64,000 bases of DNA from Stentor roeselii (lineage: Eukaryota > Ciliophora > Heterotrichea > Heterotrichida > Stentoridae). Each line of letters opens with the position of its first letter. Positions within the stretch are counted from its first letter, which is position 1. Below, one piece after another: positions 1,710 to 58,796 of the stretch. The position numbers were made by a program, and so were the translations under genes. The notes under the pieces are model-generated. The model made no database searches and had not been told where the DNA came from. It saw only the letters and a program-made list of their open reading frames with translations. Where the stretch lies: positions 123,513-187,512 of the forward strand of contig RSEH01000048.1 in NCBI GenBank assembly GCA_006503475.1. Reading direction: 5' to 3'.

Positions 1710-3269
1710 CTAAAGCTCTGGAGAATAAGAGTTTTGAAGACGAGTCCTCGTTTTCAAGATCTTGGAAAACTTCTCAAATGATGAGTTTTTCGCAAGTGAT
1801 GTGTCGACTGTTCTAAAGACTGGGTTTGGAATAGTATTTGAGTGGATTCCTTTTATTTTTTCTTTTTTAGAGTTCTCGATAAGCTGCTTCCGAAGGTTTA
1901 GGTCTTCAGTTTGTTTCCTGGCTTGTAAAACTTCTTTTAACTTTTGAGCCCTTTTTGTGTCATTTCCGATAACTGTCCTTAAAAGTTGCTCACTTTCGCT
2001 TTTTTTTAGAAGGTTTTTCCTGAATTCATTTTCAGTCCTTTCAATGGATTGTTCGTAGTCTTCTTTAATCAGGTTAATTTTTTTTTCATCTCTCATCCAG
2101 AAGTGTTCTTTAATCTCTTCTGAATTAATCACGAGACACTTGCAAGTCTCCATCACAACTGCCCTCATCTTCCTTTCACATCCTTTCAAGATTTCGTACT
2201 CTCCGAAATAATTTCCTTCTTTACAAGTTTTAAAGAGAACAGCGTATTTTTGCTTTATTTGCCTGACGTTCCAAGATCGAGTCCCAACAGGCCACTTGTT
2301 GACTTTTTCTACTTTGACGAAAATTTGCAGTTCGACAGTTCCTTTTTGAATGATGTAAAAAGAGGTGCTAAGTGACTCAATGTCAAAAATTAAGTCATTT
2401 GGGTGGAACACTGCTAAAGCACAGGAGTTGATCAAAGCCTGCATTTTGTTGTAGCTCATTCCAACGAATAGAGGAATATTGACGATTAGTTTAAGGTTCA
2501 GGCTTTTTTCAAGGTTTTTAAGTGAGTAGACTATTCTTTTGTAGTCAATGTCTTTTAATATGAAAAGAGTCGTGTCAGTCTCAGCGATCGCATCAGCTGA
2601 TCGGACTGAGTCCTTATCCAAAGCCATTTCTCCAAAATACCCTCCTGACTCAATATTCGCTTTCCAGTCCCCTGCGATATAAATCCCAATTCTTCCTTTA
2701 TAAACAATAAACAAACAATCAGCCGCTGTCCCTTTTTGAATCACTGTTTAAGTCTTACCTATCGACCCTCTTGAAAACTGTTCACAATACAAATTATTGC
2801 ATAAGTCTCTCACTATTGACTGTGGCAGGGTCTTAAAAAACTCTGACTTCGCCACCCATGAAGAAAAAGCCTCAGATTCTTCAGGAGAACGAAAAACTGC
2901 AGATTTTTTCGCGATTTTTGTTAAGTCAAATGTTGAGGATTGAAGAAGCTGCTGACAGTTCTGACGGAAATCTTCTCTTGCGCTTAGCCATGATGGGATT
3001 ATGTCTGATGTTTCTGGAGTTTCTTGGGTGTTCAGCTGGTCTGATGGCGGCTTTGGAAGAGATTTGCCTTTGGATCTTAAGGCTGTTGTTGAGAGACGTC
3101 TTAGGTACTTTGAAGGGTCACTTCTCTCGGTCAGCTTTCCTTGATCGGCTTGTAAGTGACTTGGATTTACGAGAACTGTGAAACGAGGGTGGTTTGACCT
3201 GCTTTCGAAAACTGCTGGAAGAGTGTTTTTTGGGAATTTTGATCTTATGTTATTGGTTGAGAGAACCAT
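1710..3269 (-). CDS. Protein with two cyclic-nucleotide-binding domains, one 15-nt intron
   Basis: Two exons, 3269-2759 and 2743-1710, joined across intron 2744-2758, give 514 residues. The intron falls inside the first CNBD; splicing turns ...FSRGSI / IQKGTAAD... into a continuous CNBD core. The first CNBD spans about residues 150-260 with YFGEMAL near 206 and an Arg in the phosphate-cassette position (VRSADAIAE). The second spans about 265-390 with YFGEYEILKG near 353 and a more divergent cassette. A charged, probably coiled-coil tail follows. There is no kinase or channel domain, so it is a PKA-regulatory-like or ciliary CNBD scaffold rather than an enzyme (inference). Its start is only 22 bp from that of the divergent gene at 3292. 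Confidence 0.85.
2744..2758 (-). other. 15-nt spliceosomal intron
   Basis: On the minus strand it reads GTAAGACTTAAACAG. It contains an in-frame TAA, and its removal restores the CNBD frame (SI|VIQKGT). Position 10 is A, as in the other introns of this window. Confidence 0.9.
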
Positions 3270-3291
3270 TATAAAGGATTAGTCTTGAATT

Positions 3292-4044
3292 ATGTACTTT
3301 ACTGATAAATTCCCCAGAGCTGAACTCAAAACTTTTCATCCTGGACTTGTTAAACAGAGCCCTGGAAGAAGACAGCCAGCTATACATAAAAATATTACTT
3401 CTGACAATTTCCAATTCCTTTCTAAAGTTTACAGTGACTTGACTTTCTCCAGATACCAAGCAGTCTCTCAACAGCCTCCAAGTAAAGAAACACTTGCCGA
3501 GATCTTCGAGCTCCAAAAAGAAATAAGAGACAAAGACCTAAAAATCAGAGAAATTCAAAATAAACTCGGATCTTCCAGGTCTTCAGGAACATTGTTCAAG
3601 TCGAAAGAAGACTATTTAGAATACGCGAGTGAATTGAAATCGCAGATTAAAGATCATCTAATTGAACAAAACCAGTTGAAGCAAGAAAAACAATCAGAAG
3701 TCAAGAAACGATTAGAAGAATTGAGAAGACTGAAACTTGAACAAGAAGAAAATAGGAAAAAAGAACAAGTGCAGACAATGAGCTATAAAAATATACTTGA
3801 AACTCAGAAGAATTTAAGGAAAAATCTGGAATTCTCGGAATCTCAGATGTTTCCAGCATTGAGAGGCACCCACAGAAGTCTATTCAACGAGCGACAGTTC
3901 GAATCAATAGAAATCCCATCAAAGAAAAACGACAACAAACTAACAATAAGCCTGAGCTCATTACCTGAGTTTTACCAGCCCAAGTTCACAAAACGCCACC
4001 CAAAACTAATGAAAAGAAATCCAATAACTGGAGAAGTTGAGTAA
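3292..4044 (+). CDS. Coiled-coil protein, 250 aa, unknown function
   Basis: A complete single-exon frame. The N-terminal 60 residues are basic and mixed. Residues about 70-180 are rich in Glu, Lys, Gln and Leu with heptad-like spacing (EIFELQKEIRDKDLKIREIQ, later KKRLEELRRLKLEQEENRKK), so a long coiled coil is likely. The C-terminal part is basic and low in hydrophobics. No enzymatic motif or signal peptide is visible. It is divergent from the CNBD gene across a 22-bp gap, so the two must share a very short promoter region. A cytoskeletal or ciliary structural role is possible but is only inference. Confidence 0.75.
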   Translation: MYFTDKFPRAELKTFHPGLVKQSPGRRQPAIHKNITSDNFQFLSKVYSDLTFSRYQAVSQQPPSKETLAEIFELQKEIRDKDLKIREIQNKLGSSRSSGTLFKSKEDYLEYASELKSQIKDHLIEQNQLKQEKQSEVKKRLEELRRLKLEQEENRKKEQVQTMSYKNILETQKNLRKNLEFSESQMFPALRGTHRSLFNERQFESIEIPSKKNDNKLTISLSSLPEFYQPKFTKRHPKLMKRNPITGEVE

Positions 4045-4069
4045 ATCAAGATATTAAGTAATACATTAA

Positions 4070-4408
4070 ATGGACTCAAACGCCAGTTTAAGTGTTTTAT
4101 CTATTTTAAACAAGAGAGGTCTAAGCAGTCAAACAAAATTGAAACCTTTTAAAAAATCGCAATTGTTTCAATCAAAAGTCATTCCTAATCACCGAACAAC
4201 CGCAAGTTACACTTCGTTGATTCAGGAAAGATTGAAAATTGTGAAAAAAATGCAAACTGTGTTGTATTCAGACCTTTCTTTCAAAAAAATTGATTATTTA
4301 AGACAGAAAACTCCGAAACAGGGACTAAAAGTTAATACTAAACTCAAATCGATTCACTATCAATCTCGAGTAGTTAGAATTCCAAGAGTTACTGAGTTAA
4401 GCGGTTAA
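4070..4408 (+). CDS. Small basic protein, 112 aa, unknown function
   Basis: A complete frame starting 25 bp after the coiled-coil gene on the same strand. The protein is strongly basic (many Lys, few acidic residues) and rich in Ser and Gln, with no membrane segment or signal peptide. It lies tail-to-tail with the Lys-rich gene ending at 4435. I do not recognise a family. The short distance on both sides and the absence of any competing frame support it as a gene. Confidence 0.6.
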   Translation: MDSNASLSVLSILNKRGLSSQTKLKPFKKSQLFQSKVIPNHRTTASYTSLIQERLKIVKKMQTVLYSDLSFKKIDYLRQKTPKQGLKVNTKLKSIHYQSRVVRIPRVTELSG

Positions 4409-4434
4409 GTTCTAATAAGTTTAATCTAATCACA

Positions 4435-6927
4435 TTATTTAGTCCATTGAAAACATCTGAACTTACCTGCTGAGGATGTCCTGGGGAGATAAGCTGTGTC
4501 AGTATTAGTCCTACCAACTTCAAACAAGTCATCAATATAATCATGAATATTTTTCGGCTGCGGTAGAATCCTTTTAGCCTTAGGACTCATAAAAGTGGTC
4601 TTAGTGCTACATCCAGACGAAGTCTGAAACTCATTCCTAGTGCTCATCCTATCAGTGGCAGCACCAAAATTACTACCATAAAACCCATGACTAGACCCAG
4701 GCCTTTTATAAATATTCAATTTCTGTTTCTGCCAAAAGTTTTCCCACCGTCTAAATAACCCTTACACAAACGAATAAGCCAACTTGCGAATATAAACTTT
4801 CCTAATCAAATAATCCAGTTTTATCGACCTCACCTTATAATCGCACTGTTTTTTTTTCATATAAGAGCTGATCCGATACCAAACCAACGGCTTAACACCT
4901 AATTTCGCTCGATTTTCTATTTTTTCTAAAGCTTTTCCTAACTTTTTCCCCGCTCTGAGAATAGAAACAGAAGCAAAAATCTTAGAAAAAGCAGGAAAAG
5001 TTCGAGATTTTAAAGCATAACTGAAAATCTTTGAAAGCTTCTGAGCGAAAATAATGTATTTTTTTTGTAAGACATGAGAACGTTGACTGCTGTAACGTTT
5101 GACATTGTGGAAAACTCTGCAGGTCGTTGAGAACTTTTTAGCTTCCAAGACTCGGAAAATTGACCTGAGACCTTTTGAGAAGTTTGATAAATTTTTTTGT
5201 TTTCCTGAATTTTCAGTGATTTTTAAAAAACCCAGGAGCTTGTTTTTCAGGTTTTTTGTCTTCAGCCAGTCAAAAGTTTTTAAGAATTTTTTCGCTTTCA
5301 AGGACTGGTCAGGTACCAGGGGTTTAGGAGATAATGATAAAGGTTGAATAGGCTTTGATGCAGAGTCTTCAGGTCTTGAATTACCTGACCTTAAAATCGG
5401 TTTTTTTGGAGGTTTTTTCATTTCGGACTTTTCTTTGGGTGAGATGTGGAAAGGTTTTTCTTTCGCTTCTTTTTTGATGTCTTGGAACGCTGAATGTTTT
5501 AGTTTTTTCTCACAGGATCTGATACGGAATCCAGACAAATCAGCTAAAAGTCCTGCAGCGTTTTTTTTCCTGGCGTTTTTTTCATCCTGGACAGCCTGAG
5601 TGAGTTTTAACAGAACTTTCCCCTTCACGATTTTCCAATGTGCCAATAATCCCTTTTCCATTTTTCCAATAATTCTTTTAACAGCATGTGTAAGTTCAAT
5701 TTTTTTTTTTCTTTTACAATCTTCATTTTTTTTATCATTTTCCTTATTTCTCTTATTTTCTTCATTTTCTTTACAGTCGGCAGGTCTTCCAGCCCTTAAA
5801 TTTTTTTTTTTAGGATTTTTTTTTCCTTCTTGACTTTCTTTGCTGATATTTTGAGACTCTTCATTTTTATCTCCTGAGTCAGTAGTTCCGAAAGTGTCGA
5901 ATTTCCGAAGAACGCCGACAGTGTTTCTTCGCCCGGCGCCTCTCAGATCAGGAGTCTCTGCGAAAGGGTTTCCGGGGGAGTTGGACTCAGAAGAGTTAAG
6001 CGTGATGAATAAAGAAGGGCGAGTTTCAATTGCTTTGGGACTTTGAAAGCGTACCGGATGTCGTTTTCTCCAGATTTCTCGGTCTTTATTGTCGAAACTT
6101 GGACGACGTGAAAGACTTTCCAGGTTAGAACCGTTTAAAGTCACAGTCGCTGAACGGTTCTCATGTCTTCCGATGAACCTTCGCGAGTCCTTCGCACTTG
6201 AAACAAAATATTTCATTTTCGAGGTGATTCCATTATTTTCATTGGAAAAAGTACTATACCTTAAAATCTTGGTAAAAGAATAACGAAAACTAAGACCCAC
6301 TAATGAATTTACAAAGTTTTTCATTGAATTTTTCATGTTTTCTTTATTTTTCGAGTTATTTTTCAGTTTAGAAAAGTGCTTATCCAAGAACTTGTTAAAA
6401 ATTTTGAATAAAGATCTATAAGTCTGCCTCTGAAGAGTTTCGATTTGAACATTTGACTTTGAACTTTCCCAACTTTTACGAGATTCATCTGGACTTTCAG
6501 GGCGACTTTGGCTTCTAAAGAAGAGATTTTTTTCATTAGTTTGTTTTAAAAATTCTCCGAATTCTGTAAGTTCCGTGTTTTCCGTAAGTACCTGAGTCGA
6601 GTTTCGGTATGACCGACGAGGTGGCTTTTGACGTGGCTTTGATTTGTTTCTGAGGAATTCTTTGTAAAGGCCTCGAAGCATGCCGAAGGAATATTTGACT
6701 AAAGGCTCTGCACGACTGTCGAAGATTAATTTTAAAGATAAACAAAGAATCACGTCTCGTGGACGGTAGGTCAGAGGAGGATTCGCTGAGATGGACTCGA
6801 TGAATGCTCGCGTTTCTACTCGAGATGAGTTCAGAGAAGGCATGTTTATCAAGTTACTTAGTTTTTCATCGAAGTCGTCGTCGTCGAAGAGGTCTGTTGT
6901 TGTTATTACTTTGTATTTTGTTTGCAT
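4435..6927 (-). CDS. Lys/Arg-rich protein, 825 aa, unknown function, one 15-nt intron
   Basis: Exons 6927-4766 and 4750-4435 are joined across intron 4751-4765. Without splicing, the frame would stop at 4762 and leave an orphan reading frame that has no ATG at its start. Splicing joins ...KLAYSFV to RWENFWQKQKLNIYKRP. The protein is very basic, with low-complexity stretches of Lys, Asn, Glu and Ser (about residues 340-420), SPK/SP motifs and several imperfectly repeated F(S/T)K(I/L)..-type helices that may bind IQ or microtubule partners. The C-terminal exon is Ser/Thr-rich and ends QWTK. No known domain is recognised. A cytoskeletal or nuclear role is possible. Confidence 0.75.
4751..4765 (-). 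other. 15-nt spliceosomal intron
   Basis: The minus strand reads GTAAGGGTTATTTAG. It carries an in-frame TAA at its 5' end (TGTAAG), and its removal fuses the 720-residue first exon to the C-terminal exon that otherwise lacks a start codon. A at position 10. Confidence 0.88.
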
Positions 6928-7465
6928 TGTTTATTTATCATTCGCTTATTTAAAAAATTTCAATTGAAGGTAGTGTTGGAGTTGATGAAGGGGAGTTGAA
7001 GGAACATCCTTTTAGTTTTAAGTACTTTTAGATATTTTAGAGTTGAATTAAGGGATAATTTTTACTATTGTCTTGGAAAAATCTTGGAAAATTGAAGGAT
7101 AGAACGGTTAAAATGACTTAAAAACTAAACCTAATCGAAAAAAATTATCTCTTCTTCTAAAAATCATAATTTTTACTATTGTCTTGGAAAAATCTTGGAA
7201 AATTGAAGGATAGAATGGTTAAAATGACTTAAAAACTAAACCTAATCGAAAAAAATTATCTCTTCTTCTAAAAATCATAAGAATTTCTCATAACCCTTTA
7301 ACTTCTACATAAATCCTCTACACCCTTTATTCACTTGTCACTATCAACTCTATCTTCACAGACATTATCTTCATCCTTTCTTTTCCTCTGTATTTTCTTC
7401 ATTTCAATCATTCTTCTCTCTATCATTTCCTCCATTCTCTTCCTTTTTCCAGAGCTAATAAAACA
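6928..7465. promoter_or_regulatory. 538-bp intergenic region between two divergent genes
   Basis: This is the longest gap in the first 15 kb. It separates the divergent starts of the Lys-rich gene and the P4-ATPase and must hold both promoters. It contains a 111-bp tandem duplication (7055-7280) and a pyrimidine-rich stretch just before the ATPase ATG. No coding sequence is visible in it. Confidence 0.6.
7055..7280. repeat. Tandem duplication, 111-bp unit, two copies
   Basis: Copy 1 is 7055-7165 and copy 2 is 7166-7276, plus 4 bp of a third. The copies differ at one base that I can see (gaacggtt versus gaatggtt). Each holds ATTTTTACTATTGTCTTGG and a doubled TCTTGGAAAA motif. Near-identity indicates a recent duplication. 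Confidence 0.95.
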
Positions 7466-10400: not shown

Positions 10401-10738
10401 CTCTGATCATCCACATCATCAGCTTTAAGATGCTCATGGTCAGTTCTTATTGGAATAAACTGAGTTTGATTGGAGTTGTTGGAGGACTCGGACTTTATCA
10501 TGTCTCGATGATCTTCTTGAATACAGCACCTGTCGCTTCTAGGATACAACCTGGACTTAACCAGTTGTATTACGCGCTCATGAGTCGACCGAAAAGCTGG
10601 ATCGTTATTTTCTTTGTACCGATCATCGCACTTATACCGGACTTCGTTCTTACCAGCTGGAATAAGATCTTTCATCCGACACCTGTTGACAATTTGATGG
10701 CGATTAAAAGGAAACAAGAGGAACTTAAGAAGAAATAA
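7466..10738 (+). CDS. P4-type ATPase (phospholipid flippase)
   Basis: 1090 residues, single exon, the usual length for P4-ATPases. In order: the N-terminal FLRAANIYFLVIS membrane entry, the actuator motif LDGETNLK (Asp near 183), the phosphorylation motif DKTGTLT (Asp 403), a nucleotide-binding domain with KGADSVM, a P-domain MLTGDKQETA, and the hinge GDGANDVNMIQTAHIGVGI (near 794). A C-terminal block of about six membrane helices follows. DGET instead of TGES marks the P4 class, which moves aminophospholipids or related lipids to the cytosolic leaflet. The start was chosen at the ATG 70 residues before the first membrane segment. No CDC50 partner gene is in the window. Confidence 0.97.
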   Translation: MVESATSDYQRLRNSNSENISSSTSAQNRVIHFNKPEAKALFCSNEIITTKYTILSWAPKSLLMQFLRAANIYFLVISVLTCMSFSPKKPFSIIFTFVMVLFFTMIKEGIEDYYRHKQDDQENNRTSHRVDQLSNEIMDIPSKEIKVGDIIRVNENEQIPADLAMLSSSDPKGIAFINTMNLDGETNLKDKIASESTKDKNDVISLARYSGKISCDKPNENLNNWKCTLEDSNGIRPLGMKQLLLRGCVIKNTEFVFGIVVYTGTDTKIVLNSKPAPRKVSNVLNLMNFILFSIFGLQIVICVVFSFLGIYWNNEVGVEHSYINLKEKNYLLDFFVGIGTFMVAYSSLIPISLYVSLEMVKIGLAYFMNHDKDMYYEEEDKRANCRTSDLVEELGQVEFVFTDKTGTLTCNIMEFKKCSIGGTIYGGGKRSSNIGVGQDTRPADIIKDKNHPEHQRIKDFFNLMAVCHSVFPNEDAKDKSKRKYQAASPDELALVDGSVDMDFIFWQREDGLVRVKHQGHLSTWQLLAEIPYSSERKRMSLIVRDPETDKIVLLMKGADSVMIPLLHKNDSIIALEEHLRQFAVEGLRTLVMAKRVIKEDKFNEWKAVWDQLSLSLDEDKDKKLEDHGSQLEKRLKLVGASAIEDRLQDGVPDAIKFLMNAHIRVWMLTGDKQETAIEIGKSCNLVQPFHTLVDLSSRSDEEFTSLLVYNVKKYELETKSIPEILEMRKRLSERMAIVIDGSTLAMALSRHKEKFFKMGLLADSCICCRVSPAQKAQVVELAKSNGPWITLAIGDGANDVNMIQTAHIGVGIIGKEGAQAVQSSDYALAQFRYLQKLLLVHGRWGYRRISLFICYYFYKNVAVVFCELCYAFFNGFSGQIYVLDTLTMMFNAVWTSWPCMLTFILEQDLNAEDSFKHPIAYKAGQLRQYFSMRVFWSWMIAAMWHGFVSLFLPFAAMAYAVDDDGRDTGLWWVSTLSFTLIIHIISFKMLMVSSYWNKLSLIGVVGGLGLYHVSMIFLNTAPVASRIQPGLNQLYYALMSRPKSWIVIFFVPIIALIPDFVLTSWNKIFHPTPVDNLMAIKRKQEELKKK

Positions 10739-10774: not shown

Positions 10775-11473
10775 CTATTTTAGATTAGGGTCTAATGCTT
10801 TTAGTCTTGCTTCTCGAATGTCGAAGGTGTGTTTTGAAATACCTCGTTTTATGTACCAAAAGGCGAAGAGTGATGAGGCTATGAGAAGGAAGTAAGAGAA
10901 AAATAATAACCAGTTGTTTTTTGACTTTTGGTGTTTTATAGCGCCTTTGGATATTGCGCTTGGAGTCCCTGAAAAACATTGGGTTTCTTGAACTTTGAAC
11001 CCGAAGGCAGTGCATAAAGATTCACCGTCTTTCACGATCTCTTTCAATGAGAAACATATGAGACTGTTCCCGTGGCAGAACTCGATCTCTGCTGTGTTTG
11101 CCATGAAAAAATCGTTCTCGCATGAGGTAAACCATTTCTGGCAAAAGTCAGAACAGAGACCTGTTTTCAGTCCTTCCCCTCTACTTACGGCTTACACGTC
11201 TCCATCGCATTCATGGCAAAAGGCCTTTTGCATGTACTGTAGGCAGTTGTAGGAATAGCCTGAGTACCCGTCGAAGATTGGTGGGTCATTAAAAATCCTA
11301 TAAAACTTTTTATAAATCGCAAGTGCCGAGCTAGTATCACAACAAGTCCTAGAATTATGTTCGCCACAGAAAGGAAGAGCCGTATTGCTGACCTCCTTAC
11401 TGCTAAGGTGCTTAACAAGAGTAGTATTAACACAGACTCCATAAGCCGAAGCAATAAAAAGCGGAAGAATCAT
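10775..11473 (-). CDS. Folate-receptor-like Cys-rich membrane protein, one 15-nt intron
   Basis: Exons 11473-11196 and 11180-10775 are joined across intron 11181-11195, giving 227 residues. A signal peptide (MILPLFIASAYG) is followed by a Cys-rich ectodomain. Splicing creates CHECDGDVGEGLKTGLCSDFC and then QKWFTSCENDFF, which resembles the C..FC..WF.AC..D core of the folate receptor / riboflavin-binding family. Near the C-terminus lies a transmembrane helix (WLLFFSYFLLIASSLFAFWY) and a short basic tail, so it is a type I membrane protein rather than GPI-anchored. Ligand binding is not established. It lies between the flippase (tail-to-tail) and the EF-hand gene (12 bp downstream of it, same strand). 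Confidence 0.75.
11181..11195 (-). other. 15-nt spliceosomal intron
   Basis: The minus strand reads GTAAGCCGTAAGTAG. It contains an in-frame TAA; removal joins GDV to GEGLKTGLC and restores a continuous Cys-rich domain. A at position 10. Confidence 0.88.
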
Positions 11474-11485
11474 ATTTATATCAAA

Positions 11486-21357: not shown

Positions 21358-22230
21358 TTAGTCCAGGTCGAATGTTTGCAGCTTTTCTGAAATGATTTCG
21401 TCGAAACTGTCGATACTTTCTCGGTTCTGCCTTAAAAATCGAGAGTACACCTTGAATGAATGGAGAAATACAAGAGTTGGTATCAAGTCGGTCAGATGGT
21501 AGGATATGAAAAGGATGATCATGTTGAAAAGTTGAAAAGTATCGTCTTGATCACTGAAGTAAAAGAAAATTTGCTCTCCAGATTTAATGATACTTGTGAT
21601 AGCTCCTATTGTTATCCAGAACAAAAGGTTTTTGGGAACTGAACCCATCATTCTTTTTATTGTTAGTAACAGTTTTACACCACTTATGACTATTCCCAGG
21701 CCAGAAGCCACTTCTATTGAAGCTTTAAATGATCTTGAAATTAACCAAAATTGATTATGTTCACTTGCTACTACAAAGATGATGAGAACTATTAAAAACA
21801 AGTAAAGTAATACATTGAAGGAAAATATCAGGTAAAACTCGAGTTTTTGCTGTTTATTTAAATCTTTTCCTTCGATTTTAGATATTGCATCCATTTGCAT
21901 CACTCGCCTACCTGAATCTTACCATAAATAAATCACGAGAGTCTCACTTGAAATGTAAGGAAGTTCATAAGCTACTATTAAGATCATTGTTACCTCTCCG
22001 AAAGCTACACAGGAGTCAAAAAACATGACAATTTTTAAGAGAGAAGAAGCTGAAATCATATAAATGTAGTTTCTGTACTCAATCAAATTATATAAAGAGT
22101 TTCTGTAAGATCTTTTCCATAAAACAATAAGAGCTATAAGTAAAGCTGTGTATTCTATCATTAATACGAAATAAACAATGCTTCCGAAATATTCAACTTG
22201 ATTACCTTTTCCAAGGTCGCATATATCCAT
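21358..22230 (-). CDS. Seven-helix membrane protein, one 15-nt intron
   Basis: Exons 22230-21923 and 21907-21358 are joined across intron 21908-21922 (285 residues). About seven hydrophobic helices are visible, starting with VYFVLMIEYTALLIALIVLW and ending with ILFISYHLTDLIPTLVFLHS. A short cytosolic Arg/Ser tail follows. The pattern is that of a GPCR-like or TOM1/THH1-like 7TM fold; I cannot assign a ligand or a precise family. There is no signal peptide or long N-terminal ectodomain. It is tail-to-tail with WDR90 (19 bp). The intron falls between helices 3 and 4; without splicing the protein would have only three helices. Confidence 0.75.
21908..21922 (-). other. 15-nt spliceosomal intron
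   Basis: The minus strand reads GTAAGATTCAGGTAG with an in-frame TAA. Removal joins ...VIYLW to RVMQMDAISK in frame. A at position 10. Confidence 0.88.
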
Positions 22231-27894: not shown

Positions 27895-29550
27895 ATGATA
27901 AGACCTCAAAATAGTCTGACTCCATCAGCCTTCAGCTTAGAAGAAATCCTGAAGTGCATGATTTGCTTTGAAAAGTGCGTCGACGCGCGAATGTGTCCTA
28001 ATTGTTCAAAACTCTGCTGCAAAACCTGCATCCGCAAATGGCTGACAGAAAATCGTTCTCAATGCCCTCACTGTCGCGGCTCGCTTCGGCCTGAGCAGCT
28101 GGTGTCCTGTCGGTTCATTCAAGATCTCAATCAAGCCATTGAAACCTTGTCAGTTCCCAGGCCGGACCCAATTGAAAAGTGCCTTCAACATGACTGCCCG
28201 CTTAACTACTTCTGCAGCACTTGCGCAAGGGCAGTCTGTTCGGACTGTGCAATGTTTTCTGCTGAGCACAAAGGACACGAGTTTAAACATTTGAATAGTG
28301 TTTACAATCAGCATCTTCAAGAAATCAACTCTGAGTCGAAAGTTCTGGTTAAAAGAATTAATGAGTTAGAAGCTGTTTTGGACTCATTGGATGTGAATAT
28401 TGAGAAGATCAAGGCAGTTAAAAGTGAAAAAAGCAGGGAAATGACTCAGTGCTTTGAACAAATGGTTAATAGACTTGATGAGCAGCTTAGGGTTAAAACT
28501 TTTGAATTGGGGAAGAAACGAGAAATGATTTGTGATGAGATTAAAAAAATGAAGAGTCTTCAGACTGATGTTGACAAGGAACTCGCCCTGGTCAGTAAGA
28601 ACAAGTTGATTGTAAAAAGCAATGATTTGGTTCGAAAATTACAAGAATTTAAAGAAGTTGATGTGAATAAGTTCGATGTTCAACAGTTCAGTTGTGAGTT
28701 CAAATCAGAAGTCGTCCCTCAATATGTCTCTGGAGTTTTTGAACTTAAAGAATTCAGCAAGGCACAGGGCACTGTTGAGGTCGTTTACAGTGAAGTCCTT
28801 GATTATAATGGACTTTTGTGGAGACTTAAAGTTTACCCTAACGGCAACGGGGTCGCGAAAGGCACTTACCTCTCAGTCTTCCTTGAGCTCTTGAAAGGAT
28901 ATGGCGATTCAGCAAAATATGACTATAGGGTTGAAATGGTCAATCATCAAGACCTTGCCCAGCAAGTGATTCGGGAATTCGCTTCAGAATTCGAAACTGG
29001 AGAATGTTGGGGATATAATCGTTTCTTTAAAATTTCTTTGTTGAAAGATGAGGGATATCTGACGGATTCTGATACTTTAGTTATGAAATTTTATGTCAGG
29101 GCTCCGAGTTATTTTCAGCTTTATAAGGATCAGAAAAATTATATCAAGTACTTGCAGGATAAGGAAAATTCTTATAAGTCTAAACTTGCTGAATTCATGG
29201 AAAAAATAGAAGAGTTTGGAGATAATAGAATGATAGAAGATGGAAAAAATGAAGAGGTTTCGAAGGAGTATACACCGAATCCTCCTCATGAACTTAGTAC
29301 TGTCATGCAGAAGTACTTGATGAGTCCCCCTGATGATGATAGTTCGGATGAGTTGACTCCTGTTAATATTGACTGGACGCAGATTCAGGATATGCCAGAT
29401 TTTAATAATTACTCAGACCTCACAGGAAACGACCCAGAAAGTCCCGAAAACCAAGAAGTTCAAAGTCAGGAGTTCTGGCCCCTAGAGTAATACCTAATCA
29501 GTGAAAACCTCATCCAAGCCATCGAGTCAATCCAAGCCTCCTTGAAATAA
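27895..29550 (+). CDS. TRIM37: TRIM37-like RING/B-box/coiled-coil/MATH E3 ubiquitin ligase, one 15-nt intron
   Basis: Exons 27895-29486 and 29502-29550 give 546 residues. The RING (CMICFEKCVDARMCPNCSKL, then CCKTCIRKWLTENRSQCPHC) has the spacing and wording of TRIM37. A B-box (CLQHDCPLNYFCSTCARAVC) follows, then a coiled coil (about 140-260), then a MATH/TRAF domain (about 275-405) with YNGLLWRLKVYPNGNG and NRFFKISLL. An acidic, Ser/Pro-rich tail ends the protein. The last intron replaces an apparent stop (EFWPLE*) with PLDENLIQAIESIQASLK. In animals TRIM37 limits ectopic centriole assembly and acts on peroxisome import; here a basal-body quality-control role is inferred. Confidence 0.9.
29487..29501 (+). 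other. 15-nt spliceosomal intron
   Basis: It reads GTAATACCTAATCAG. The TAA at its 5' end looks like the TRIM37 stop. Removal adds 16 in-frame codons and ends at TAA 29548-29550. A at position 10; it differs by one base from the intron at 29639. Confidence 0.82.
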
Positions 29551-29564: not shown

Positions 29565-30482
29565 ATGGAGCCGGAAAGTCCAATCGAAGAAATCCTGATC
29601 AAGTCAGTCCAAGGCGATGACGAGTTAGAAGAACTAATGTAATCCCTAATCAGCAAGAATCTTGAAGAACAATGCAAAATAAGTGAAAAAGCCGGAAACT
29701 TCTTAGAAGCCGACAAAGTCTACTCCCGGATCCAGGAGTTAAAAAAGCAGGTCCAAAAAAGAAAACAACTGGCGCTTCACTCACGTCAACAACAAGAAAC
29801 TCAAGACCTAGAAGCAGCTTACGAAGAAGAACTCACAGCGCACAACTCACAATGGCAAGAAAAGCTCGGAATGTTTAAACAAAGCTGCAAAGATGCAGAA
29901 GACCAGTTGATTCAAAAGCAAACTGAAGAGTTTTCAACTACGAAGCAAGCTTTAGAAGAGTCTATACCTGTGATACCGAAACATTCTCCTGAACTTTTAA
30001 ATCTCAAGCGGATTCAAGACACGCTTGTCAGGAATAAAGAGTACAAAGAAGCGCATTTCGTACAACAGCAGATGATTGAACTAGAAGAAAAACTTAAAGT
30101 CACTTGGGGAGTCGACAGAGAAAATAAAATAATGCAAGGATTAGCGGTTTTGACGAAAAAGCAGGAAAATGAAGTCTCTTCGTTTAAACAAAAACTACTC
30201 GCTGGAGCTGAAGAACTGAAAAAAATGAGGGCTGTGGAATATGAAGGAATTGTTAAGAAGTACCAGAATTTAAGGAAGGAAATGAAAATCACGCATAATT
30301 TAGAGAAAAATCGATTTGAAGGGAAACATACAACTGGATGTGGCACTTTCAAGACTGACTTGAACCAGTCCTCAAGAGCGATTTTTAATGTCAGGGCTTA
30401 TAGACCTGGAACTTCTGAGGGCAGAAGTTTGATTTCTAATGCCTCGATTAAAAGCTTCAGCTCGCCGAATGGAAAAGTGTAG
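29565..30482 (+). CDS. Coiled-coil protein, 300 aa, one 15-nt intron
   Basis: Exons 29565-29638 and 29654-30482. The start MEPESPIEEILIKSVQGDDE lies 14 bp after the TRIM37 stop. The first exon is only 74 nt, so a plain frame search would start the protein about 100 residues late. After splicing (EEL|IKNLEEQC), residues 30-220 are rich in Glu, Lys and Gln with heptad spacing; they include a UVR-like segment (KRIQDTLVRNKEYKEAHFVQ). The tail is Ser/Arg-rich. I recognise no catalytic domain. The UVR-like pairing motif (LK..KD.LV...EYE.A) recalls protein-interaction helices of ciliary proteins (inference). Confidence 0.78.
29639..29653 (+). other. 15-nt spliceosomal intron
   Basis: It reads GTAATCCCTAATCAG and carries an in-frame TAA. 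Removal joins the 74-nt first exon to the long second exon in frame. A at position 10. Confidence 0.86.
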
Positions 30483-34783: not shown

Positions 34784-34796
34784 CTCTAAAACTTAG

Positions 34797-36035
34797 TTAC
34801 TTATGAAAAGGCGACCTGTTTTGTTTTAAACTTGCAGGTGTCAGATTTCTTGGAGGCGTTCTTGTCTGATAGCCTAAAATTCCTTTAGCAGGTCCATTGC
34901 TCGAAGTCCTCTGGCCTGCCAAGAAAGGACTGACAGGCGAGTTTTGGTTCTGTTTTTTTGCATTGACCAGTCTTTCAGCTTGTCCAGCATCTCCATAAAC
35001 CGAGATAAACTTTTCTTCAGGACTCATAGTGATCGACTTGTCACGTTCCCGATACTCTTCTCCCCATCTTCTACATTTACTTTCCATTTCCACCAGATAC
35101 TGTTGCTGAGGTCCTAAAACACTTCCAGGTCTACAAAGCCTGGCATATCCAATAAACAAAGGTGCAGGAAAATTGTGATGTTTCATCGCATAACACCCTA
35201 TAAGTGTGCCAGTCCTTCCTAGTCCCGCTTTACAATGAACAGCAACTCCTTTTTCCTTTTCCGAAATAGCTAAAAATTCATGTACAATATTTTCACTCGG
35301 TACACTTCCGTCAACGAAATAAAGATCATAATGTCTGATTCCCAGTCTTCTGAACCTTTCAGCGTCATAAGTGATATTATTCAGCCTGACAACAGCAGTG
35401 ACTCCGATTTGATGAAATAAAGGCGCGTAGTCCTCAGGTGTCCAGACCTTGAACCCTTCAGAGTCAGTGGAAGTGGGCGAAGGACATGCAAAGGCGAGCA
35501 TTTTATTTGGAATGATCCAGTTCCAGTCACCGTTTTCCACTTTTTCATAAAACTCGTATTCACGTAAGTTGAAACTCCTCAAGTTAAACCAGCTGAGTCT
35601 TACAGCGTATTCAAGTCCAGCCAAAACATGAAACAAAGAACATTTATAAGTGCATCCTCCATATCCCGCATCTCTAAAATCAGGAAAACTCGGAAGACTC
35701 GAAAAGACTTCAAAGGACTCCTGCGCTGAACGGTCAAGGACGAGGATTTGAAAAGCGCCCATCAAGTACGCCGCATTGACTCGTTTCTGGGGAAGAAGAG
35801 ATGTGTAATGGTAAATTTTGTAATTTGAGTAAAGCTGGTTCTTGAGCAGTCGCTCGAGTTCTATGCAGAACTTGTAAGTCATTCCTAGGTTCAACGGGCC
35901 GAAATCAGAACAAAAGGGCTGGTAGACCAGTTCGTTGTCGATGCAGAAGTAATAAGAACTGGCCTGGTTCTTTGGAGGGGTCTTGTCTGAGATCCAGAAA
36001 AGCTTGTTAGGGATGATTTCAACCGCAGAGTTCAT
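34797..36035 (-). CDS. CDC14: CDC14-type dual-specificity phosphatase
   Basis: 412 residues from the ATG at 36035 (MNSAVEIIPNKLFW). An in-frame ATG at 36245 would add 70 residues but overlaps the divergent tectonic gene and does not look like CDC14. The N-terminal DSP-like domain (SDFGPLNLGMTYKFC) is followed by the catalytic domain with the P-loop HCKAGLGRTG (Cys268) and the general-acid region around residues 235-245 (YFVDGSVPS). CDC14 removes phosphate from CDK sites (pSer-Pro) at mitotic exit. In ciliates and oomycetes it is also linked to basal bodies and cilia. The tail after residue 340 is Asn/Pro/Ser-rich. It is divergent from the tectonic gene across 36 bp. Confidence 0.93.
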   Translation of the reverse strand: MNSAVEIIPNKLFWISDKTPPKNQASSYYFCIDNELVYQPFCSDFGPLNLGMTYKFCIELERLLKNQLYSNYKIYHYTSLLPQKRVNAAYLMGAFQILVLDRSAQESFEVFSSLPSFPDFRDAGYGGCTYKCSLFHVLAGLEYAVRLSWFNLRSFNLREYEFYEKVENGDWNWIIPNKMLAFACPSPTSTDSEGFKVWTPEDYAPLFHQIGVTAVVRLNNITYDAERFRRLGIRHYDLYFVDGSVPSENIVHEFLAISEKEKGVAVHCKAGLGRTGTLIGCYAMKHHNFPAPLFIGYARLCRPGSVLGPQQQYLVEMESKCRRWGEEYRERDKSITMSPEEKFISVYGDAGQAERLVNAKKQNQNSPVSPFLAGQRTSSNGPAKGILGYQTRTPPRNLTPASLKQNRSPFHK

Positions 36036-47262: not shown

Positions 47263-48186
47263 ATGGATGCCTTAGATGGGTGTGTCTTGCTTCTGTTTAA
47301 TGCTAGTTTGGTTGCTGGAGTTCATTTGCTTTCATTGATTATTGCCAAAAGAAGAGAAAAACAAATTTTGGTTTTAAATGTTGATCAGGTTTTAAGTCAA
47401 TCTGATAAGCTTTTAGGAAAAAGGGTGAAAGTACTGGGAAATGCGAATGGCAGAACAAACTTTGAAGAAGCTGTTTCTGTTTTAATAAGACCTTTTAAAT
47501 CAATCAGCCAATACTTTAGCAAAGGATCAGGAAAACCGGCCAGTTATTCAAAAAATTATTTTGTAAGTTTTAACTAGAAAAAGTTTGAGTTATCGGGAAA
47601 TTTGGAAAATCTTAAAGTTTGTATGAGTTCCGATACTATTGTTTCTGGAAATATGCAGCCTCTTTCAACAAGGAAAGGCTTTTATATTGGCATTTCTAGT
47701 CTTTATAATATTTTTACATCAAAAGATATAAAATTCGATGGGCAGTTTACACTTTCATCAACTAGAGAAGTGATTCAAGATAAATCAAAATGTATAGTCA
47801 GAGGGATATTAATCCAAGGAAAAAAAGGTCTAAAAATAATCTCTGACCACATTTCAAGTCATTCAGATTTGATGAATGCAGAATTAGCCCAAAAAATTCA
47901 TGTTTCATTCCAGAGGTTTGCCTTTATTACAACCTCCCTTGCAATTCTTTGGATCTTTAAAAAATGCATAAAAGGTGAGTTGAAAGTTTTAGGAAGTACT
48001 AAAGTCCAAGAAATTGAACCTAAGCATGAAAATCTTTGCATTATTTGTTATGAAAGACCAGTTGATATGATAATAGAGCCTTGTAATCATTTTGTAATAT
48101 GCCACAAATGTGCTCGTTTAAACTTTTGCATAATATGTCGATCAGCGATTGAGAACTTCAAAGAGGTAAAATTCATCCAAAATTAG
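47263..48186 (+). CDS. MUL1/MAPL-like mitochondrial RING E3 ligase, one 15-nt intron
   Basis: Exons 47263-47562 and 47578-48186 give 302 residues; the apparent TAG at 47575 lies in the intron. An N-terminal transmembrane helix (LLLFNASLVAGVHLLSLIIA) is followed by a GIDE/BAM-type domain (about 30-240; STRKGFYIGISSLYNIFTS). A second helix (FAFITTSLAILWIF) leads to a C-terminal RING with C-x2-C...C-x-H...C-x2-C and C-x2-C (CIICYERP, then EPCNHFVICHKCARL, then FCIICRS). This order is that of MUL1/MAPL, an outer-mitochondrial or peroxisomal ligase; plant SP1 is the plastid version. The start was chosen at the first ATG before the first helix. It is intact although the neighbourhood is full of remnants. 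Confidence 0.87.
47563..47577 (+). other. 15-nt spliceosomal intron
   Basis: It reads GTAAGTTTTAACTAG and ends with an in-frame TAG. Removal joins SKNYF to KKFELSGN in phase 0. A at position 10. Confidence 0.9.
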
Positions 48187-53000: not shown

Positions 53001-53371
53001 TTAAATCTGAATCAAACAGGTGGGACAGTAAATCAACTGGCTACCATATCTCAGAAAGAAACAGTCCTAAATCTGGAAGTCAGTATAGTGCTCAGGATTT
53101 ATCTTCAGTTTCTTATCTAAATCTAAAAGTCAGTATTGAAAAAGGCTCTACAGGACTTCTGACACAAAGAAAGCTCAAACAGGATTTCATATTTTTTGTT
53201 GGAAGTTGACTTGGAACAATATCAGGACTATTTGGAATTGTTGGGTTCATCATGGCATATTTTGAAGCTTTCACTAATAAATTTTTCAATAAATGCATAT
53301 CAGAAGATAAGGTTCAAAAGATTAGCGCTATAGATACTGATTTAAACTTTACAACTGTTACAAAAATTTAA
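50059..53371 (+). pseudogene. Kelch / Cys-rich / multi-pass membrane protein gene, disabled
   Basis: A signal peptide (MLIILFVLCNSLSLNF) is followed by kelch repeats (LILFGGWLGSSGFNDIWEF; FYIFGGQTTEGPENDFWEF; KIFLFGGIHKDQIFNDLWTF; VFLYGGRTSSEVSNELWEY). Next come Cys-rich GCC2/GCC3-type repeats (CKAGSFSEKIGGLKCVECGPG) and membrane helices (VSVPLFLVFVILFPF; FSFLVVIGALLLTCSTIL; a last one near 53.25 kb). Reading is broken by TGA 50917, TAA 51064, TAA 51100, TAA 51361, a one-base frameshift between about 51380 and 51419, TAA 51632 and TGA 53207; the natural end is TAA 53369-53371. None of the stops is covered by a 15/16-nt GT-AG segment. Protein similarity continues across every break, so it is a young pseudogene of a family common in ciliates. 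Confidence 0.8.
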
Positions 53372-55183
53372 GAAAATTATAGTTAATGATGGAGAGATAG
53401 ATTTTTGGGGATTAATAAGGAATAGTTTAAAAAAATATTAGTAATTCATCCTTGTTATATATTTCTTATATAACTTAATTAAAAGTTATTTATTTTTTAT
53501 AGAAATGTTTGTATAATATATATATCTGCTATTGTCTAAATGATGATTAATCATATGTATGCTACTTTTTATGAAATATCAAAGATAATCATGGTAAATG
53601 AATTAATGACTAATTAATTCATAAAATTCTTCAAAAATTCATTTGATTTATAATATTGATATTCATAATTTGATAGTCTTCATATTAAAGCCAAGGGCTG
53701 TTGCTTTGGTCGAATTTTCTTATTTTCCCTAATTTCGGTTTCCTCGGCACAAAATTTTGAAATAACTTTAGAAAAATACAAAGAAAGATTACATCACAAT
53801 GAAATCAATCAGCATGAAAACTAGAAGATATTGAAGGAATAACTGATGTAAATGTTTAAAGCATATAAGGTAAAGCACCGAATTGTCCTTGTTCAATTTA
53901 AGCGAATATTTCAAAAACGAAATTCATTGAAAGTGGACTAATTAGTGAAGCTCCTATTTTAGAATCTATGAAACATCAGGGTCATCACTGAGAATTAAAG
54001 ATTCATTTTATTAGGAAAAATACTATTGAAAAAATCAATGCTAACTTTGATTTGGAAAAGAATCAACTAACTAAAATGCTAAATGAAATGCAAGTAAAAC
54101 CGCCGGAGATGTAAAATAAGTTGCTCTAAAGTCACTGTGCTTGAGATCTTTTACTTTTTTTTAAATAATTGTTGGATCAGTGAAAAAAGTTGTAGTAAAT
54201 GAAATAGATTGTTATAATCGATGTGTTATAATTATTTTCAAGAGGTAATTTATGATTTGGCTTAATTTTCTCATAATACAAACAGAATCTGCAGGATGGT
54301 AACCTTTATTAAGAAATTATCATTAAAATTACTTTAATTATTTTAAAATCCTGAATGGACTTGGTAATTTCAGAATAAGGTTCTTGTATAAAGGTAATAT
54401 TCCTTTTCTTATTATGTCTATTTATTATTAAAAAATTTAAGTGTTTTATTCAATTTTCTGATTCATACTATTCTAGTCTAACCCTTAAATACTATTTAAC
54501 CTTTGAATAGGGGTAGAATTAGTAGACTAAGAAATGAATTTCCTATCTTCGAAGTACCAAGTGTTAATAAGATTAATTTTTTGACCTAATCTTGAAATTT
54601 ATACCCTTCTAAGCTTTCATCGCAGGAATAAATTTATGCAAATATCGTCAGCTTTTTAATACACTGATTTTCAATTCAGCCTAGAGAGTACTTATTGAAC
54701 TGAGCACATCCAACAAGTTTTCTTGAAAGGAATGCATGAAGCATCATCTCTAGACAGAGTTTCCACAACATATCAAAGCATTCAAAAATTAAAGACTTCT
54801 GATAAGGAAGACAGTCATTCCCAAAGGCCAAACAATCATTACATTAGTAAAGATTTAATTTCAAATTCAATAAAGTTCATATCAGAAACTCCATTAATCT
54901 TGGGGAAAACTCACTACTAAACTTAGTAAAATTCTAAAGATTATCATCTTAAAATTGGCATTCAATATTCCAAACCATCAAGAAATCTATTATTTCTGTT
55001 TCAAAATTTAATAAGTATCAGATAAAAAAAATTTTCTATTAGAAAATTTGTTTCTTGCTGCAAAATAATGCTTAATTCCATTCAGAATCTTATTGGCTTA
55101 GAAAAATATCTAATTATAACAAATATTTCTTCCACCTGATTAAAGATGATATAACCTATTAATCAAAATGGTGATTTATAAAA
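53372..55183. other. 1.8-kb AT-rich region with faint coding remnants
   Basis: No complete gene. Two pieces are protein-like: about 53930-54110 (+), where KTKFIESGLISEAPILESMK continues after an in-frame TGA as ELKIHFIRKNTIEKINANFD; and 54699-54920 (+), TEHIQQVFLKGMHEASSLDR followed by a Ser/Gln-rich tail ending at TAA. Neither belongs to a family I recognise. They look like eroded genes. Confidence 0.4.
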
Positions 55184-56275
55184 ATGGGTCACTGTATTTC
55201 GAAATCATCTAATAAGGAACACCTTATAAAACGAGAAGTGAAAGCTAATGAAAATGGTATTCTTAAGATTATAACAGAACAAAACAATCAAAACCTTTCC
55301 CAAATTCCAGAAGATTGCCTCAGATTAGAATTATTTTTGGAAAAAAACTTAGTTGATTCAGGGGAAACTCTCAAAGGGCATATTCATATCCAAATACTTG
55401 ATACTTTAATGAATTGCGAATTGATTATGAAATTCACAGGAGAAGTTCTGATAGGTAGTCTGCATGGTCAGCGAAATGCTTTATTTTTTTTAAAGAACTG
55501 GATTGAGCCTATTAATCCTAGCCAAATTTGCATTCCCTTTGAATTCATCATACCGAAAAATATCAAGCGAAGTGTGTGTTCCTTCGGAGATATAAAACGA
55601 TTTTTGAAATACTACTTGGAACCTGTATTCAAATCCCATAAAGGGATATATAGCATAAAGGAATTACTCAATATTGAATATGATGAATTGGAGTTAAAGA
55701 ATACCCCGTTGTATCAAACCCGAGAGCATCAGATTGGCAGATGTAGAGGAGAGATTTTGATTAAGAGAACTTGGATTAATAGAATTTCTAATTCTGGATC
55801 TCCAGTTGAATTTGCACTCGAAATTAATAATCAGAGAAGCCTTGTCAATATAATTTCTGTCGAATTTGAAGTATCATTATGGGATTCTAAAAATAATACG
55901 AAACATGTAGAAAATCTAAAAAACTGGGAATCGAAAATTTCAATTGAAAAAGGTACTCTTTTCTTGTTAGAAAATCAAAGGATTAAATTTGACTCTCCTG
56001 AAAATTTGAAATATTTTAAAGGAGAATATTGGCTTTCAATTACTATTAAAACTAGTCCAGAATGTGAGAAAGAATTAAAGCTGTTGACACGGTTTGGTAT
56101 GAGACCTTTGATTTCTCAAACCGAAATTTCACTAAAAGAACTTTCTCACTTAAACTCAACTATTTTACCAACTGCAGTTTTAACTTATGATCCTGAAATT
56201 AAAATCGACAGAGAAGTGATATATACGAATAGAAATGATTATTTCATCTATAGCAAAGCACTTACAAGGGATTAA
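55184..56275 (+). CDS. Arrestin-domain-like protein with acylation-type N-terminus
   Basis: 363 residues, complete. The start MGHCISKSSN offers Gly2 for myristoylation and Cys4 for palmitoylation. From residue 45 the protein reads as an arrestin N-lobe (LELFLEKNLVDSGETLKGHI, then CELIMKFTGEV). From about 185 it reads as a C-lobe (RGEILIKRTWINRISNSGSP, EYWLSITIKTS). Arrestin-domain proteins act as adaptors in endocytosis and ubiquitin-ligase recruitment. No PPxY motif is visible. Codon use is AT-rich like its neighbours, yet the frame is fully open, which argues for continued selection. Confidence 0.7.
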   Translation: MGHCISKSSNKEHLIKREVKANENGILKIITEQNNQNLSQIPEDCLRLELFLEKNLVDSGETLKGHIHIQILDTLMNCELIMKFTGEVLIGSLHGQRNALFFLKNWIEPINPSQICIPFEFIIPKNIKRSVCSFGDIKRFLKYYLEPVFKSHKGIYSIKELLNIEYDELELKNTPLYQTREHQIGRCRGEILIKRTWINRISNSGSPVEFALEINNQRSLVNIISVEFEVSLWDSKNNTKHVENLKNWESKISIEKGTLFLLENQRIKFDSPENLKYFKGEYWLSITIKTSPECEKELKLLTRFGMRPLISQTEISLKELSHLNSTILPTAVLTYDPEIKIDREVIYTNRNDYFIYSKALTRD

Positions 56276-57765
56276 CTTAGATTTAATTGTTTTCAAAATT
56301 TTGTGTTTTGATATAATAAGTGTGGTTATATAAATAAAATTATCCTTGATATGGTTGAGAATAAATAGAGATCTTTTGATTATTTTCATATAAAATTTTG
56401 CTATTAATTTGTTGATGACTAGATACATAATACTCATTTAAAGTGCCATAGAGCATAAAAAGTTGCTTCAGTAATGGGTGATAAACTACAGATATGATAC
56501 TTTCCTCAGGTTCAGATCCAGTCCTATTTGAACCTCTCCATTCTTACTGGAACCCAAATAAAAACAGATCCAAATAAAACCTCATATCGAAGCATATTTT
56601 TTGCTGCTTTCATCAATTACTCTGGTATTCCCCAATTACTCTATATCTGTGGTGACTACCTTTCTTACAACATTCGCCAGCTGCTTGAATAAGCAAAGAC
56701 TTAAAGTAAACAATTCATTCTCCTACAGTGCTTCTTTTTTTACACTAAGAGTTAAAATAGCTCAGGATGCAGCATTTCTACTCAATTTTTATATTCCCTA
56801 AGACTTTTTGCCTTGTCAAAAGTCTTTCTCAGTGGTTTTCTCTACATGCAGATATCTTTCCCCTTGTTTGGAAGTGTTTTCGGTCTCAAGTTCATCAATT
56901 GGTTTTTTCCTTAAAGGAAAAATTGATCGGGCTCAGTTATTTTTTAGGTGAACTTTATACTTAAGGTATTTTGATTTTTTCTTTGCATTTCTTGGGACCA
57001 CCCGATGATGAAACTGTTTCTCACCTTGAAAAAGCGATTGTGTATTGTGGAATCGGTATTATTATAGTCCAGATGAGTTGCAAAATATCAGTTAATTAAT
57101 TTATACTATCTTCAAGATCTTTCGAGATAACTGCATGAAGATAAGCTAGATAAGGCCACGCAGTTGTTGATTTAAACACTTTAAGAATTCCAATTGGTTT
57201 ATCAATTTCATTAGAAAAAAGGGTGGATTCCTTAGTAAGTTTGAATTAATTTTTGCTGTTTGATTATGGAATTGCAAAGATAAGAGTTTACCATGAATAT
57301 AATAATATATGCTTTCATCTGAATCAACTCTAATATTGTCAATAAGAATCAGTCCTTACTCAAGACCAATTAAATTCAAAATATTTGGTCTTCGCTGACT
57401 TTAGTCCTTGAACTACTTTGAAAAATTTTCTAATTCTTCTGAAATATCGAAACTGATATTATATGCTATCTAAGCATCTAAAGATTACAAATGTAAAATG
57501 ATTTTGTTTTAAGCTGTTATTAGCAGAGTCATAAATCATTTAGCAAGTTTGAGCCACTTTATTCATTATTAATAATTATATAAATAAAAATCAATTGATC
57601 AAACAACCCTTAGCTTGTAATCTACCTTTTATTTATTATCTTTCATCACTCAAGTTTTATTTAATTATATTTAAACGAATTTTAGACTGTCTAGATGTTA
57701 AACTTATAATTAAAAAGAAAGGAAACTCAGATTAATTTTTTCGAATAATAATCTAATTACCTAAA
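56276..57765. other. 1.5-kb AT-rich region with a possible membrane-protein remnant
   Basis: Near 56767-57099 (+) one frame reads KEKLIGLSYFLGELYT, an in-frame TAA, then GILIFSLHFLGPPDDETVSH and LEKAIVYCGIGIIIVQMSCK. This looks like a membrane-protein fragment, but I cannot name the family. The rest shows no supported feature. Confidence 0.35.
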
Positions 57766-57918
57766 CTAATAGCCCCAACTTTCATAGATGCACTCCTCGT
57801 AACGATCTTTCCATTCTCTTGCATCGTCACTTTCATGGAAGTCGTCAAACTCAAATTGTTTTGTTTCAAGGTTCCAAATAGCCACTAGGTAAATGATACT
57901 CCCTTCTATATCCCTTAC
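57766..57918 (-). pseudogene. Coding-like 3' fragment, 50 codons
   Basis: The minus strand reads VRDIEGSIIYLVAIWNLETK followed by QFEFDDFHESDDAREWKDRY and EECIYESWGY, then TAG. It is well formed, with acidic and aromatic residues and no stop, but has no start codon. It lies just beyond the 19-bp tandem repeat that separates it from the zinc-binding/coiled-coil gene on the same strand, so it may be that gene's detached C-terminus. Confidence 0.45.
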
Positions 57919-57924
57919 CTAAAT

Positions 57925-58070
57925 GTAGGTTACAATCTTCGATGTAGGTTACAACCTTCAATGTTTGTTACTAACTTCAATGTAGGTTACATCCTTCGAC
58001 GTAGGTTACCTTTGACTTCATTGTAGCTTACAAACTTCGTTGTAGGTTACAATCTTTTTCGAAGATTACC
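57925..58070. repeat. Minisatellite, 19-bp unit, about seven copies
   Basis: The unit is GTAGGTTACAACCTTCAAT-like. Copies start at 57925, 57944, 57963, 57982, 58001, 58023 and 58042; one copy is 22 bp. The unit is not a multiple of three and several copies carry stops in every frame, so it is not translated as a repeat protein. It exactly fills the gap between two minus-strand coding segments. Confidence 0.95.
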
Positions 58071-58796
58071 TCAATATTGATTACAAAAAAAACAATATTT
58101 TGCATCGTTTGAAAATAAGAGTTGCCGATACACGTTTTCCAAATCTTCTTCTGAGCATTTCAAAGTCTTTAAATCATGGCAAAAGTTTTCCAATAAGAAT
58201 TTAATCTTTTGACTATCAGTCATAGCTCGAAGCTCTACCTAAGTATAACCTTTCACTCTTTCCCCTCTACTTTGCTTAACCCTTTCGCTTTCGCTTTCTT
58301 TTTCTTCTAGGGGTGCCAAGGTTTTTTTTAGGCTCTCGATATTTTGGTCCTTTTCATAAATTTCTCGATTTAAATCACTTATTTTGCTTAGTGTGCTGAT
58401 TTTTATGTCATTTGAGATCTCTCCTACCTCAGCTACTAAAAAAGAGATTCTTTCTTGTGAGAATAGATATCCTTCTAATTCGGAGATGTTCTTGATATTC
58501 TTTGCTGTTTTTTTCAGGCTCTTTATTGCTTCACTTGAGGCCTTTTTCAAAGTCATGATTACTTTTTCAGTATCATTGACCATCTGAACTATATAATTTT
58601 GGATTTTTGAATTCAAATCACTTACAAATATAAGTTTCAAGTCCTTCTTTTTGATACGTATAAGTTCGTGATTTGTTTCATTTTCATGATCTATTGAGTG
58701 ATTATAGCACCAATATGTCATTTTAGGGCAAACTTCACAGGAATTGTCGATTCCGAGAGGACAGCCATTGTAAGAGCAAGACATATTTATAGCCAT
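58071..58796 (-). CDS. B-box-like zinc-binding and coiled-coil protein, tentative 15-nt intron
   Basis: The N-terminus has a Cys/His pattern (CSYNGCPLGIDNSCEVCPKM, then YWCYNHSIDHENETNHEL) like a B-box or similar zinc ligand set. A coiled coil follows (residues 60-175). The frame meets TAG at 58239. An intron 58235-58249 would remove it and continue as ELRAMTDSQKIKFLLENFCH, ending CFFCNQY with TGA at 58071 (236 residues). The coding length fits (711 nt). If the intron is not real, the protein ends at 58239 with 185 residues, or the gene is decaying. It lacks a RING, so a ligase role is not supported. Confidence 0.6.
58235..58249 (-). other. Tentative 15-nt intron with GTTAT 5' end
   Basis: The minus strand reads GTTATACTTAGGTAG. 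Length, terminal TAG, TTA before the branch position and A at position 10 match the other introns, but the 5' end is GTTAT instead of GTAAG/GTAAT. It would remove an in-frame TAG and keep the frame. Confidence 0.5.

Follow-up and report, generated by a model that had tools for sequence, protein, structure and literature searches.

The 64,000-nucleotide window of the Stentor roeselii genome analyzed here (the whole stretch of contig RSEH01000048.1 from position 123,513 to 187,512) contains eight candidate introns of exactly 15 nucleotides (nt), each interrupting a protein-coding frame. Introns of this length are real in this genome, were correctly read by the first-pass annotation of the sequence, and belong to a kind already known. 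With high confidence we assign these segments to the U2-type spliceosomal introns known from heterotrich ciliates, with a fixed length of 15 nt and the consensus GTAAG-N3-(T/C)-A-N2-(T/C)-AG, in which the A at position 10 (A10) is the putative branch point.

Direct reading of each site found a 15-mer of the annotated form at all eight coordinates, as listed here with positions in the window:

2744..2758, minus strand: 15-nt intron GTAAGACTTAAACAG, phase 1, stop TAA at positions 9-11; in a cyclic-nucleotide-binding-domain gene, coding from about 3269 to 1710
4751..4765, minus strand: 15-nt intron GTAAGGGTTATTTAG, phase 2, TAA at 2-4; frame open for 2163 nt upstream and 315 nt downstream; no Pfam domain
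11181..11195, minus strand: 15-nt intron GTAAGCCGTAAGTAG, phase 2, TAA at 2-4; within a folate-receptor-like domain; found in the blind scan
21908..21922, minus strand: 15-nt intron GTAAGATTCAGGTAG, phase 2, TAA at 2-4, with C at position 9; in a membrane-protein gene; found in the blind scan
29487..29501, plus strand: tentative 15-nt intron GTAATACCTAATCAG, phase 2, TAA at 2-4; close to the end of a RING, B-box, MATH gene
29639..29653, plus strand: 15-nt intron GTAATCCCTAATCAG, phase 2, TAA at 2-4; measured from the ATG at 29565, the first exon is 74 nt long; no Pfam domain
47563..47577, plus strand: 15-nt intron GTAAGTTTTAACTAG, the only phase 0 site, TAG at 13-15; in a RING-finger gene, with the RING downstream of the junction
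58235..58249, minus strand: probable 15-nt intron GTTATACTTAGGTAG, phase 1, TAG at 9-11, unusual start; frame open for 549 nt upstream and 162 nt downstream

A10 and a (C/T)AG 3' end are present in all eight, and a T precedes A10 in seven of them; read on the coding strand, seven sites begin GTAA(G/T) and the one at 58235 begins GTTAT, exactly as annotated. A10 is the sixth base counted from the 3' end, with five bases downstream of it, which agrees with the position given earlier for the putative branch point. Moreover, removal of the 15-mer leaves one frame open on both sides at every site, and a stop codon lies inside the 15-mer in that frame (8/8).

A blind scan was carried out on 303,942 bases, made up of the window and 26 further loci, three of which had been fetched for spliceosome genes. 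In its strict form the scan accepted GT..AG segments of 10-30 nt that held an in-frame stop and, once removed, left 300 or more open bases on each side; any base was allowed at position 10. It returned 41 candidates, 15 of them at 15 nt, a single one at 16 nt and no more than six at any other length; nine other pairs of end dinucleotides gave 7-45 candidates overall, with 0, 0, 1, 0, 2, 0, 1, 1 and 5 at 15 nt. At the loosest setting 26 of 135 GT..AG candidates were 15 nt long (0-8 for the other pairs); the background rose at all lengths and the peak was kept. A10 was found in 14 of the 15 strict 15-nt candidates, whereas 12 of the 26 candidates of other lengths had A at the corresponding position (p=0.003); outside the window A10 was present in 11 of 12 strict 15-nt candidates. 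The five settings together yielded 28 distinct 15-nt places, 24 of them with A10; those that do not have it are in loci L013, L016 and L014, the last overlapping a better site, and at 34786-34800 of the window on the minus strand.

The same two rules were seen in a pattern search of the whole genome (44.39 Mb), restricted to the subtype that starts with GTAAG and ends with CAG and controlled by the reversed pattern. The form with A10, GTAAGNNNNANNCAG, occurs 783 times against 281 for its control, while the same 15-nt pattern carrying any other base there occurs 532 times in total (about 177 per base) against 1063; the 16-nt version of this subtype is found 154 times against 274, thus displaying no excess. 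With 783 occurrences for A10, 532 for the three other bases together and 154 for the 16-nt form, both the A and the length are fixed. A10 accounts for 783 of 1315 patterns (60%), the frequency of this base being 32%. The first-pass annotation had named an A10 rule over many genes as one point on which its reading turned, and the rule holds in the strict scan, in all settings combined and genome-wide. A broader pattern without C13, GTAAGNNNNANNNAG, barely exceeds its control (2544 versus 2427). The excess corresponds to some 500-630 introns of the GTAAG/CAG subtype; this subtype makes up 6 of a hand set of 23 introns, and extrapolation from that set, which is biased in having been chosen for A10, gives a genome total of roughly 2,000 introns.

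Removal of the segments also joined protein domains. At 2744 the joined sequence scored 82.4 bits for the cNMP-binding domain, the second piece alone scoring 72.4 and the first piece giving no match, and the alignment to solved cGMP-dependent kinases crosses the junction without gaps. At 11181 the folate-receptor domain reached 43.6 bits once joined, compared to 32.5 and none for the pieces apart.

The genome encodes components of the splicing machinery. U2 small nuclear RNA (snRNA) gave one match (142.6 bits) carrying GTAGTA, and U6 snRNA one match (97.1 bits) carrying ACAGAGA; together with the genome-wide length and A10 counts and the joined domains, these genes support the earlier assignment to heterotrich-type spliceosomal introns. 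A genome profile search found one Slu7 gene (contig C310, L028:1492-2379; 124.2 bits), whose protein has the Slu7 domain (120.9 bits) and a zinc knuckle; its alignment to human SLU7 scores 132.4 bits and includes the CxxCxxxxHxxxxC motif. Cir_N/Cwc25 and Isy1 were each represented by one match. Having one match each argues against contamination of the assembly by another eukaryote, although the match counts are lower bounds. The Cwc25 protein starts with MGLAFLNKKSWH and is therefore without the Gly2-Gly3-Gly4 plug. The alignment of Isy1 to the nematode protein begins at residue 11, which means that the start of Isy1 is less altered than PMC9505925 describes for Stentor. Fyv6/FAM192A had no match in the genome; as the search was also silent in control genomes, its absence is not demonstrated. 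Loss of both Slu7 and Prp18 had been expected from the short distance and from the table published for Stentor; Slu7 is plainly present and Prp18 partly so.

In a spliceosome with these parts the GTAAG start would be recognised by U1 and later by U6, and A10 would be presented by U2; A10 would then attack the first G, giving a 10-nt lariat with a 5-nt tail, and the terminal AG would be the sole 3' splice site within reach.

Some results weigh against reading these segments as introns. The blind scan recovered six of the eight window sites and missed 4751, presumably due to its coding score, and 29487, because only 48 nt are open downstream; among those found, 47563 passed five of the five settings, 58235 three and 29639 one. 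At 21908 a THH1/TOM1 match spans the junction with 20.5 bits, under the Pfam cut-off of 25, and the Pfam scan found no above-cut-off domain across the junctions of 4751, 29487, 29639, 47563 and 58235. Furthermore, the evidence comes from DNA: RNA-level splicing, branching at A10 and the sequence of steps are inferred. The segments could in principle be handled at another level, as short internal eliminated DNA that the assembly still contains, or by ribosomal bypass or stop read-through. DNA elimination is known in ciliates and stops are reassigned in several of them; however, the GT..AG ends, the fixed A10 and the U2 and U6 genes form a spliceosomal signature, and eliminated segments in Blepharisma have a median of 255 bp according to the accessible text of PMC9942856. 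In addition, stops act as stops in this genome: the 76 frames of at least 300 codons end with TAA (38), TAG (29) or TGA (9), and TGA is absent from 20 of the 25 longest frames bounded by TAA or TAG, the other five having 1-4. The genetic code is thus the standard one, and we regard handling at any such level as extremely improbable.

A narrower objection is that ordinary gene ends resembling introns are among the eight, foremost 29487 and possibly 58235, a possibility to be taken seriously that we nevertheless lean against. Removal gains only 16 codons before the next stop at 29487, making it the weakest of the eight sites, and its own TAA may be where the gene really ends; at 58235 the gain is 54 codons and the start is the unusual GTTAT. 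Chance 15-mers do occur in open frames, as indicated by the 0-5 obtained for other end pairs in the strict scan. On the other hand, A10 and (C/T)AG are kept at both sites and 58235 passed three scan settings; it is weaker than the remaining sites, though less so than 29487. As a separate observation, the introns at 29487 and 29639 are 152 bases apart and differ at one of their 15 bases, while their flanks are unlike and they seemingly belong to two neighbouring genes.

Introns whose 15 bases contain no stop leave the frame open, and the first-pass annotation had warned that they would be missed; this was borne out. Among 25 GTAAN5ANN(C/T)AG 15-mers lying between open coding frames, 19 carry a stop and six are stop-free; random phase would predict 15.3 with a stop (P=0.07). 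Six loci contributing to this set were picked because of the CAG subtype. In L043 a TsaD match scored 20.4 bits with the stop-free 15-mer in place and 26.9 bits once it was removed, the cut-off being 24.8. Less favourable were L041, where removal made a TRP match of 19.4 bits appear that was otherwise not listed, still below the cut-off of 28.5, and L040, where no domain was gained; for L039 the domain scan covered the joined version only. Stop-free candidates are also seen at the same aligned position in L008 (about 2225) and L041 (about 351), which encode related membrane proteins and whose inner bases differ; alternatively, the five residues may simply be coding in both.

We conclude that stop-free 15-nt introns exist in this genome, which leaves a strict stop rule without support. 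Such a rule, by which every 15-nt intron would have a stop in its own frame, had seemed likely within the 304 kb sample and was then not established: in that sample no stop-free GTAAG..(C/T)AG match was found in 126 long frames (0.8 expected by codon shuffling), and all 14 GTAAG sites flanked by open frames had stops, as did 18 of 20 for GTAA generally, another 37 15-mers lacking a frame that was open to either side of them; against it, six further loci provided five decidable sites, four of them stop-free, and four more that were undecidable.

For Prp18, profile search found a single match, a 349-residue frame (contig C45, L029:754-1803) with a PRP4-like motif (35.7 bits) followed by the Prp18 domain; ahead of the motif, the N-terminal part displays a run of EKNNTLE-like repeats. 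The match to the Prp18 domain (24.2 bits) covers positions 29-85 of the 143 of the profile and ends at 85; with yeast letters as reference, the conserved region was placed at profile 84-109. The stretch of equal length in this protein is identical to yeast at 5 of 26 residues and scores -7 versus 133 for yeast against itself. No yeast-like conserved region was found in any of the six frames of the locus, and a genome search with the yeast region, run without a positive control, gave no match. When the PDB was searched with the whole protein, the match to human Prp18 was confined to the PRP4-like motif (E 0.015); for the C-terminal domain no Prp18 chain came up. What is new here is that Slu7 and Prp18 are detected by profile and that the active-site region of Prp18 is unrecognisable; no report of this Prp18 change was found in the searches made of the literature on Prp18, Slu7, Stentor and ciliate introns.

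In yeast, the conserved region of Prp18 enters the active site and stabilises the docked 3' splice site (PMC8022279, in the part available), and Slu7 and Prp18 matter when the distance from branch point to 3' splice site is about 12 nt or more (PMC11651659, likewise in part). With five bases from the branch A to the 3' end the loop may be dispensable, and the region may have decayed because so short a distance relaxes the constraint. A wider proposal, that exon ligation no longer needs the active-site loop, with the loop decayed, the scaffold and Slu7 kept and the Cwc25 plug altered in a spliceosome refitted to one intron geometry, is one we offer tentatively and consider rather unlikely. We find it somewhat probable that the change in Prp18 is unrelated to intron size, being either old in ciliates or a mistaken impression in which a side copy was found and the normal Prp18 missed. 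The comparison includes this genome alone among ciliates, so the change could predate the short introns; Slu7 is well conserved despite following the same distance rule in yeast; and the identity of Prp18 rests on moderate scores, the domain alone falling below its cut-off of 32.5 and passing only with the neighbouring stretches (35.7). Against a side copy stand the single match, which carries the PRP4-like motif of Prp18, and the finding of the conserved region nowhere else in the genome by the uncontrolled search described above. A genome with a branch distance of five and an unrecognisable Prp18 loop provides a natural test of the yeast result on Slu7, Prp18 and distance.

Regarding the composition of the window, the GC content per kb is about 33-46% over the first 43 kb and mostly 21-32% from 43001 to 64000, where some kb reach 34-40%. 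Between 59300 and 62300 the plus strand has serine/lysine-rich frames with a repeated IKVDDKKTPIEPKKSE-like unit. The AT-rich stretch 62500-64000, at the end of contig C349, displays a frame of 198 amino acids open to the contig end when TAA and TAG are read as glutamine, with 12 reassigned codons; this may reflect composition only, as frames of similar size appear in other reading frames.

Short introns are found in other ciliates as well. The available part of PMC9942806 gives mainly 15 and 16 bp for the introns of Blepharisma stoltei, which are short like those described here, although UGA is tryptophan in Blepharisma and TGA is a stop in this genome. In Paramecium, Tetrahymena and other ciliates (PMC5014332) stops are enriched in short introns of length divisible by three, and retention of a short intron often hits a stop there as it does here; however, such lengths are mostly under-represented in those ciliates, while one of them is the only common length in this genome, where stop enrichment beyond chance is not established (19/25). 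Loxodes magnus, of the heterotrich sister group, also has very short introns, according to the part of PMC11441545 at hand; unlike here, its lengths are spread around a mode of 17 bp with almost none below 16. For heterotrichs the same source reports about 95% of introns at 15 bp and the rest at 16, and the conserved A of short introns is discussed in PMC10946202, as far as its accessible text goes.

Among the closest known systems is Stentor itself, for which the 15-nt length, A10 and the 5-nt tail are already published (PMC9505925, of which part was available): the annotation of Stentor coeruleus has 8806 introns, among which 8173 measure 15 nt, and 8005 of these have A10. That part of the paper mentions neither stop codons nor in-frame stops. 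Some differences emerge. Introns of 16 nt amount to 7% in S. coeruleus, while the GTAAG..CAG subtype has no excess at that length here; the intron AU content is 75.6% versus 66% in our hand-picked set of 23; Slu7 and Prp18, undetected by BLAST in Stentor (Table 1 of that paper), were found here by profile; and the start of Isy1, described there as strikingly non-conserved, aligns from residue 11 here. The present counts bring to this picture a 15-nt A10 rule in a standard-code genome, established genome-wide and independently of stop codons. The introns and the code suggest a heterotrich host, and intron composition, the lack of a 16-nt excess in the counted subtype and the code make it probable that this is neither S. 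coeruleus nor B. stoltei. Both species share the 15-nt length, A10, the GT..AG ends, conserved U2 and U6, and a Cwc25 without the glycine plug.

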